A stretch of DNA of 64,000 bases from contig CACDIC010000005.1 in assembly GCA_902552805.1 (NCBI GenBank), forward strand, positions 42,230-106,229, written 5' to 3'. Source of the DNA: an uncultured Pelagibacteraceae bacterium. Lineage in GTDB: Bacteria > Pseudomonadota > Alphaproteobacteria > Pelagibacterales > Pelagibacteraceae. Within the stretch, counting starts at the first letter, position 1, and each line of letters opens with the position of its first letter. Position numbers and translations under genes: made by a program. The notes beneath the pieces are model-generated. The model worked only from the letters and a program-made list of their open reading frames with translations. It did no database searches and had not been told where the DNA came from. This document shows positions 55,865 through 57,240 of this stretch, in pieces.

Positions 55865-56190
55865 TGACATATATAGTTAATGACAAATGCATTAAATGTA
55901 AGTTAATGGACTGTGTTGAGGTTTGCCCTGTAGATTGTTTCTATGAGGGTAAAAATATGCTTGTAATTAAACCCGATGAGTGTATAGATTGTGGCGTTTG
56001 TGAGCCTGAGTGTCCTGTTGATGCAATAAAAGCTGATACAGAGCCAGGGTCTGAAAAATGGCTAGAAATCAATAAACAATATTCCGAAATCTGGCCAAAT
56101 ATAACAGTTAAGAAAGATCCTCCATCGGATCAAGAAAAATATAAAGATGAGCAAAATAAGTTTGAAAAGTATTTTAAAGAAAACCTTTAA
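55864..56190 (+). CDS. fdxA: Ferredoxin (7Fe FdxA-type)
   Basis: [47 protein letters not shown]. Confidence 0.95.
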
Positions 56191-57019
56191 AAAGAGTAAA
56201 GCTACTAAATCGAAAAAAAAGGCAAAAACCAAAAAGGTCGTTAAAATAAAAAAAGTAAAAAAGAAGATTAATAAATTACCAAAAAAATTAATTAAAACTA
56301 AAAAAGTTCTTTTAAAAAAATCTATAAAATCTGAAGTCAAAACTACAGAACAGAAAAGTGATGGTTTAAGAATTACAAAAAATAATGAGGCTAAACCAGA
56401 AATTAAAAAAGTAAAAAAACAAGAAACAGAAAAAAGAGAATATAAAATCAAAGATTACGTCGTATATCCAAAACATGGTGTTGGGCAAATTACTGAATTC
56501 AAAAAAATAAATATTGGAGGAATAGACGTTGAAACTTACGTTATAAAATTTGAAAAAGATAAAGCAAATGGAATGGTACCTGTTAATAAACAATTACACT
56601 TAAGACCATTAGCTACTATCAATCAGGTAAATAAATGCATCTCAATATTAAAAAGTAAGCCTAAAATAAAAAGATCTATGTGGAGTAGGAGAGCACAGGA
56701 ATATGAAGCAAAGATTTCATCAGGTAAGATTTATGAGTTAGCTGAAGTGGTAAGAGACCTTAATAAGGGGGATGATTTGATGGTTGACCAATCTTATAGT
56801 GAAAGACAATTATTTGAAAAAGCATATGAAAGAATCCTTTCAGAATTTCAAATAATTCTAAATCTGTCATTAGAGGATACTCAAAAAAAATTAGATAAAG
56901 CTTTAAAAAGAAACTTAAATACTCAACCTAAACCAGAGGCAGCACCATTAAAGCAAGCTTCATCAGATTTGCCTGAAGAAGAGGCTGTTTCAGAAAATGA
57001 AGAAGATATAGAGGAATAA
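56147..57019 (+). CDS. CarD-family transcriptional regulator with Lys-rich N-terminal extension
   Basis: CarD core [27 protein letters not shown]...[43 protein letters not shown]; 28 Lys in first 60 residues. Confidence 0.9.
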
Positions 57020-57024
57020 AAAAA

Positions 57025-57065
57025 AACGCCTCTCACACGTAAATCGTTATGAGAAGCGTTTTTAA
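57025..57065 (-). terminator. Bidirectional-looking terminator hairpin; pairs better as the minus-strand transcript
   Basis: Minus RNA AAAAACGCUUCUCA...UGAGAGGCGUUUUU pairs fully with one G-U; on the plus strand that pair is a C/A mismatch. Confidence 0.75.
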
Positions 57066-57082
57066 TAAAGAATACTAAGTAA

Positions 57083-57160
57083 TTATCTTCTTCTTCTTTT
57101 TTTAGCTTTTTTCTTAGCTTTTTTCTTAGCCTTCTTTGCTTTTTTTCTTCTCTTAGGCAT
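57083..57160 (-). CDS. Putative 25-aa hyperbasic micropeptide
   Basis: ATG...TAA = MPKRRKKAKKAKKKAKKKAKKRRRR*, preceded by GGGAG 6 nt upstream; own promoter and terminator; below ORF-track cut-off. Confidence 0.7.
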   Translation of the reverse strand: MPKRRKKAKKAKKKAKKKAKKRRRR

Positions 57161-57184
57161 CTTTAGCTCCCTTTTTAAGTTAAA

Positions 57185-57200
57185 CGAATCAATTGATTCG
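57185..57200. repeat. 16-bp perfect palindrome CGAATCAATTGATTCG upstream of the micropeptide
   Basis: Read directly from the sequence; lies between the putative -10 box and the RBS. Confidence 0.8.
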
Positions 57201-57211
57201 CTATTAATCTA

Positions 57212-57240
57212 TTTTTATTTTTTTATGTGCCTTATGTCAA
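57212..57240 (-). promoter_or_regulatory. Putative sigma70-type promoter for the micropeptide unit
   Basis: Minus strand TTGACA-17 nt-TAAAAA; consensus -35, 17-nt spacer, 4/6 match at -10. Confidence 0.55.

Follow-up and report, generated by a model that had tools for sequence, protein, structure and literature searches.

A lysine- and arginine-rich micropeptide gene beside carD in SAR11 bacteria, and its possible role as a minimal H1-like nucleic-acid condenser

A micropeptide gene convergent with carD

A gene of only 25 codons, located on the minus strand and convergent with carD in a SAR11 (Pelagibacteraceae) chromosome, is real and probably strongly expressed. The ORF (57083..57160; ATG at 57160, TAA at 57085–57083) encodes the 25 aa peptide MPKRRKKAKKAKKKAKKKAKKRRRR, which contains 13 Lys, 6 Arg, 4 Ala and a single Pro, has a net charge of +19 and has orthologues in 106 loci. 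On balance, this product is probably an H1-like polycation consisting of the tail only, which would coat or condense nucleic acid, mainly DNA.

The stretch of DNA analysed here (the window, 64 kb) comes from an assembly of 22 contigs totalling 1.07 Mb, and its CarD protein shares 95–98% identity with the CarD proteins from several named genomes of Pelagibacteraceae (SAR11). Read along the minus strand from 57240 to 57018, the unit consists of TTGACA, 17 nt, TAAAAA, about 6 nt leading to a predicted transcription start near 57205, the palindrome CGAATCAATTGATTCG, the sequence AGGGAGCTAAAG, the ATG, 25 codons, TAA, a hairpin and a T-run. A preliminary description of this DNA had already placed the promoter, palindrome, ribosome binding site, ORF and terminator; every one of these elements was located again at the same position, and the translation and the Lys, Arg and Ala counts given there were correct.

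Conservation and coding status

The carD loci used for comparison were taken from the whole genomes of relatives and from named genomes, giving 109 loci of Pelagibacteraceae. An ORF lies in the same convergent position in 106, which are all of the loci whose contig covers the slot; two of the remaining three begin within the peptide gene (L020, L029) and one ends inside carD (L063). Recurrence of the unit in 106 of 106 SAR11 loci is far beyond chance. Together, these loci encode 37 distinct peptides of 21–35 aa, composed of Lys, Arg and Ala with occasional Pro, Thr or Ser; beyond Met1, none contains a residue that is acidic, aromatic or both large and hydrophobic. A separate sample covered the genus of the window, where the AGGGAGNTAAANATG pattern was present in 104 of 117 genomes (counted from a table), and three of the 13 genomes without it have the exact start MAKRRKKA.

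The preliminary description had named loss of the frame in relatives and frame-disrupting indels as results that would speak against the gene, and had proposed a comparison of synonymous and nonsynonymous change. The frame is kept in every relative that reaches the slot, frame-disrupting indels occur in none of the 106 loci, and most of the change is synonymous, with a pN/pS of about 0.24 between peptides of the same length (uncorrected, and from pairs that are not independent). These comparisons show that the peptide is under purifying selection. The two most frequent peptides recur unchanged in 28 and 31 loci, and within these groups the codons differ at third positions only, as is necessary if the peptide is fixed. 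The distances from stem to ATG (25–31) and from stop to terminator (16–26) both vary in all phases, while each ORF retains its composition from a fixed ATG to the stop; indels within the ORF are therefore in frame. Codon choice shows a weak bias: AAG accounts for 5 of the 13 Lys codons compared to 15% across the window (P = 0.03), and the longest A-run in the ORF is 7 against a simulated mean of 9.3 (P = 0.05), which hints, weakly, at avoidance of long A-runs.

One earlier suggestion was a small regulatory RNA with an incidental reading frame. A short transcription unit with a 5′ hairpin and a terminator would suit such an RNA, as would a leader that is very highly conserved in nucleotide sequence, but an in-frame ORF of retained composition in 106 loci, the low pN/pS, the third-position-only variation within identical-peptide groups, the strong and conserved Shine-Dalgarno sequence and the longer coding versions found in other lineages all argue against it, and Rfam gave matches only at E values of 0.05–1, all far below its cut-offs. 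Conservation of the frame and its residues effectively excludes this option, and we rate it as very improbable.

Promoter and Shine-Dalgarno sequence

The −35 element (57235..57240, minus strand) is an exact consensus TTGACA and is found in all 103 scorable orthologous units. At a spacing of 17 nt it is followed by the −10 element TAAAAA (57212..57217, minus strand), which lacks a T at −7 and is present in 99 of the 103 units. The exact sequence TTGACA-N17-TAAAAA occurs once in the 64 kb window, as the promoter of the micropeptide gene. Absence of T at −7 is usual in Alphaproteobacteria and has been proposed as the cause of the CarD dependence of alphaproteobacterial promoters (PMC8407463); that CarD drives its own convergent neighbour, the micropeptide gene, would be a guess.

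The Shine-Dalgarno sequence AGGGAG (57167..57172, minus strand) lies inside the leader sequence AGGGAGCTAAAG, and both are invariant in 104 of 104 units. Its duplex, at −7.8 kcal/mol, is stronger than that at the first ATG of any of the 55 other ORFs of the window (median −0.2), and one of these ORFs equals or exceeds it when alternative starts are allowed.

Leader hairpin

The 16 bp palindrome CGAATCAATTGATTCG (57200–57185) occurs only once in the assembly, even when up to two mismatches are allowed, and begins about 3–5 nt downstream of the predicted transcription start. It forms the core of a putative 5′ mRNA hairpin (57183..57202, minus strand), the perfect CGAATC/GATTCG stem of which is found in 103 of 104 units, with a loop of 4–6 nt across the SAR11 units. 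Comparison with other genera of the family (g5 to g9) and with a sister family (f2) shows that the CGAATCA 5′ segment is constant in both families while its pairing partner, the 3′ arm, shifts register between genera. The stem is CGAATC/GATTCG in the genus of the window, AACGAATC/GATTTGTT in g8, ATCACATA/TATGTGAT in g5, TCACTTAAAA/TTTTAAGTGA in g7 and GAATCA/TGATTC in f2. G-U pairs are tolerated (GCGAATC...GATTCGT; GATTTG in g8 and g9). Because the loop varies in length and G-U pairs are tolerated, a 5′-terminal mRNA hairpin is a better reading of the palindrome than a DNA site, and its likely role is 5′-end protection or translational control. The alternative of a DNA operator for a dimeric repressor is disfavoured by loops of 4, 5 or 6 nt and by the G-U pairs, and also by the pairing of CGAATCA with a different 3′ arm in g5–g7 and f2.

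The leaders of g5, g7 and f2 contain a second potential hairpin upstream of the basic ORF (L165, L166, L168–L171, L032–L049), in which CTCC or CCC faces the Shine-Dalgarno sequence (CTCC...GGAG or similar). It looks like a means of translational control; comparison of leaders found no such hairpin in the genus of the window.

The pattern TTGACW-N(27-50)-AACGAATCA was present in five of nine genomes, every time at the micropeptide gene and at no other site in the nine; the exact AACGAATCA string fails on the GCGAATCA variant of the window itself. A genome-wide leader element is unsupported, as the pattern is confined to the micropeptide gene in these genomes.

Terminator and carD

The intrinsic terminator, a hairpin followed by a T-run (57018..57063, minus strand), has a fold of −21.5 kcal/mol and a shuffle z-score of −7.96, and a hairpin and T-run resembling a terminator are found in 104 of 104 units. 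The T-run extends to the stop codon of the convergent carD, so the hairpin appears able to serve both genes, on both strands. The carD gene (56147..57019, plus strand) encodes the CarD/CdnL RNA-polymerase-binding factor (Pfam CarD_TRCF_RID and CarD_C) and is conserved as convergent neighbour together with the micropeptide. At one locus on a ‘Ca. Pelagibacter ubique’ contig (L111, 3170–4094), some 850 bp separate the micropeptide from the carD match, compared to about 65 bp elsewhere, which suggests an insertion between the two.

The CarD proteins of SAR11 and several other alphaproteobacterial families carry a Lys/Ala/Pro-rich N-terminal extension of about 60–110 aa that resembles a histone H1 tail. 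It precedes the RNA-polymerase-binding domain and was seen in L189 (MATTRKVAAKPAAKNPARKKPTAKK...), L191, L193, L200, L201, L210 and L212; L188 and L190 have no tail. These extensions have the same kind of H1-like composition as the micropeptide, but are fused to the RNA-polymerase-binding domain, whereas the micropeptide has a gene of its own on the other strand.

Longer versions in related genera

Elsewhere in the family, the slot beside carD holds, depending on the genus, versions of 21–24 aa (g8, g9), 31 aa (g6), 36–38 aa (g5) and 34–58 aa (g7), and in the sister family f2 it holds proteins of 40–85 aa, such as MEELKVIFAKARKKAKKKAAPKKKRKAAKRKPAKKKAAPKKKK... All versions in both families have the TTGAC promoter and the CGAATCA leader in common. 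Those of g7 and f2 contain KPAA/AAPKK repeats, typical of histone-H1-tail-like sequences, and have the K/A/P-rich repeats and high charge by which such tails are recognised; the form in the window is K/R/A. The likeness to a histone H1 tail, which had been drawn from the 25 aa product, is strengthened by these longer forms in the same slot.

Genomes of f2 differ in the length of the basic protein, 40 aa in some and 85 aa in the rest (L048, L041 versus L032), a change brought about by loss or gain of AAPKK/KPAKK blocks while the N-terminus and the C-terminal basic run stay the same. Over the whole order, length varies four-fold (21–85 aa) via repeat gain and loss at constant charge density. Orthology of the 25 aa and 85 aa forms is suggested by position, leader and composition; sequence searches fail to link the short and long forms, and their low complexity precludes proof of homology.

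Composition and predicted structure

Peptides in the genus of the window have net charges of +17 to +24 and an Ala or Thr every 3–4 positions. Their spectral power at 95–100 degrees per residue is 0.56–0.61, compared to 0.19 ± 0.03 for shuffled sequences, a difference inflated by relatedness. For a 35 aa orthologue, AlphaFold predicts one helix spanning residues 3–34 (pLDDT 95), which is a weak test, being a single sequence of low complexity. The longer forms show other periods (60–80 degrees) and prolines, and helix periodicity was not seen in them. The property common to all forms is thus dense positive charge with alanine, and not one fold.

A net charge of +19 together with helix propensity could also indicate a secreted cationic antimicrobial peptide. 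There is, against this, no signal or leader peptide and, in the genus of the window, no hydrophobic residue after Met1; the immediate neighbours are carD and a gene for an AMP-binding enzyme, with no exporter or immunity gene, and the micropeptide is universal in the clade, not patchy. We find a role of this kind scarcely credible.

Searches for relatives

An 85 aa query against 289 alphaproteobacterial genomes returned nothing; the same query recovers all four f2 genomes tested and misses the short forms, and it says little about short relatives. The pattern MAK-x-RKKA matched in two SAR11-family and two other genomes (MAKQRKKA) among 385 genomes of the class. No comparable ORF was found in the 3′ neighbourhood of carD in 28 other alphaproteobacterial families, and a micropeptide gene in this position seems to be a trait of Pelagibacterales.

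Pfam and NCBIfam contain no family for the protein, and neither a curated H1-tail-like model nor an attached N-terminal domain was found with them; the 85 aa form gave only chance-level matches and no extra domain. PHROGs gave no match, and no viral copy with the exact leader and N-terminus pattern was found in IMG/VR. A profile search of PDB sequences was empty, a test limited by low complexity, and the 85 aa form gave a weak L29 match (E 0.52). Bacterial proteins resembling H1 tails are already known; what appears new is the clade-wide, stand-alone H1-tail-like peptide of 21–35 aa, of which the family libraries and papers searched gave no example. No report of the gene was found in the literature, and Table 1 of a survey of SAR11 intergenic RNAs does not name the carD-adjacent region (PMC2704228).

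Comparison with known proteins and predicted function

The C-terminal domain of eukaryotic histone H1 and the chlamydial Hc1/Hc2-type proteins are K/A/P-rich, of low complexity and highly basic. The micropeptide shares the low complexity and high basicity, but is far shorter, has no globular domain and matched no Pfam or NCBIfam family, theirs included. Another comparison is with AlgP of Pseudomonas aeruginosa, whose KPAA-repeat peptides bind DNA in vitro and which associates with polyphosphate granules (PMC9239181). AlgP has a Lys/Ala/Pro repeat tail, as do the g7 and f2 versions with their KPAA and AAPKK repeats; AlgP combines a 124 aa helical N-terminal domain with a long tail, whereas the Pelagibacterales protein would be the tail alone, at 21–85 aa.

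Since polycations bind all polyanions, the peptide could be a general RNA or polyanion binder (an RNA chaperone, a condensate component or an AlgP-like partner of polyphosphate) and not mainly a nucleoid protein. The polyphosphate association of AlgP is in keeping with this, as is a PPK1 match in the assembly of the window (G000 C1:13459–13989). Of 58 Pelagibacterales genomes, however, only 22 have PPK1, which is patchy also within the genus of the window, while the peptide is present in every covered locus. A dedicated polyphosphate role is unlikely for this reason, and the broader role as a polyanion binder seems rather improbable.

The serious competitor is a lineage-specific ribosomal protein or assembly peptide, a short helix threading rRNA, for which the 5′ hairpin would be an autoregulatory leader. 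Mycobacterial bL37, a clade-restricted protein of 24 aa, came to light only through cryo-EM density (PMC5876184), and for this reason the ribosomal explanation has to be taken seriously. The micropeptide resembles tiny ribosomal proteins such as bL37 and eL41 in its size (about 24–25 aa), strong positive charge, predicted helix, clade specificity and the ease with which annotation overlooks it, and the strong promoter and Shine-Dalgarno sequence, together with a structured, gene-specific leader that in g5, g7 and f2 has a potential hairpin over the SD, would fit as well. On the other hand, bL37 and eL41 are compact and of fixed length, while a range of 21–85 aa in one order through repeat gain and loss would be unusual for a protein fitted to rRNA. 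Constant length and position-specific residues were not found, the profile matched no ribosomal chain in the PDB, and the longest form had only the weak L29 match. We consider a ribosomal role unlikely, though less so than general polyanion binding.

Of the two peptide roles put forward in the preliminary description, compaction is favoured over ribosome association, although the sequence cannot separate them, and DNA and rRNA are indistinguishable as targets by composition alone. The coating of nucleic acid is favoured because of the four-fold variation in length and the repeat gain and loss; at constant charge density, such changes fit a polyelectrolyte. By analogy, the DNA binding of AlgP repeat peptides lends support to this reading, as do the Ala/Thr periodicity and the predicted helix in the genus of the window.

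For the H1-like polycation we envisage that the sigma-70 promoter produces a short monocistronic mRNA of about 185 nt, with the gene-specific 5′ hairpin (and, in some genera, the possible anti-SD hairpin) probably protecting the mRNA or tuning its translation. The peptide would bind DNA, and possibly RNA, through the phosphate backbone and irrespective of sequence and, in the genus of the window, would fold upon binding into one helix covered with lysine and arginine and bearing an alanine stripe. Neutralisation of charge would then condense or organise the nucleoid, and length and charge density would count for more than exact sequence. The fullest version of this proposal is possible but somewhat short of probable: that the K/R/A micropeptide of 21–35 aa is a universal SAR11 nucleoid condenser, a ‘minimal H1’ free of a globular domain, related to the 40–85 aa forms of f2, with a 5′ hairpin of its own on the mRNA and a terminator in common with carD.

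Significance

SAR11 bacteria are among the most abundant in the ocean, and few free-living cells have genomes as reduced as theirs. As the micropeptide gene has been kept in every covered locus of such reduced genomes, it is probably important. Gene-length cut-offs and trypsin-based proteomics can overlook micro-genes of this kind. If the peptide condenses DNA, few known nucleoid proteins would be as small, and nature would offer a test of whether a chromosome can be organised by nothing more than an H1-like tail; should it prove ribosomal, it would be a component so far missing from one of the commonest ribosomes of the ocean. On either reading, the micro-gene is a concrete one, equipped with a regulatory leader of its own and open to experiment.
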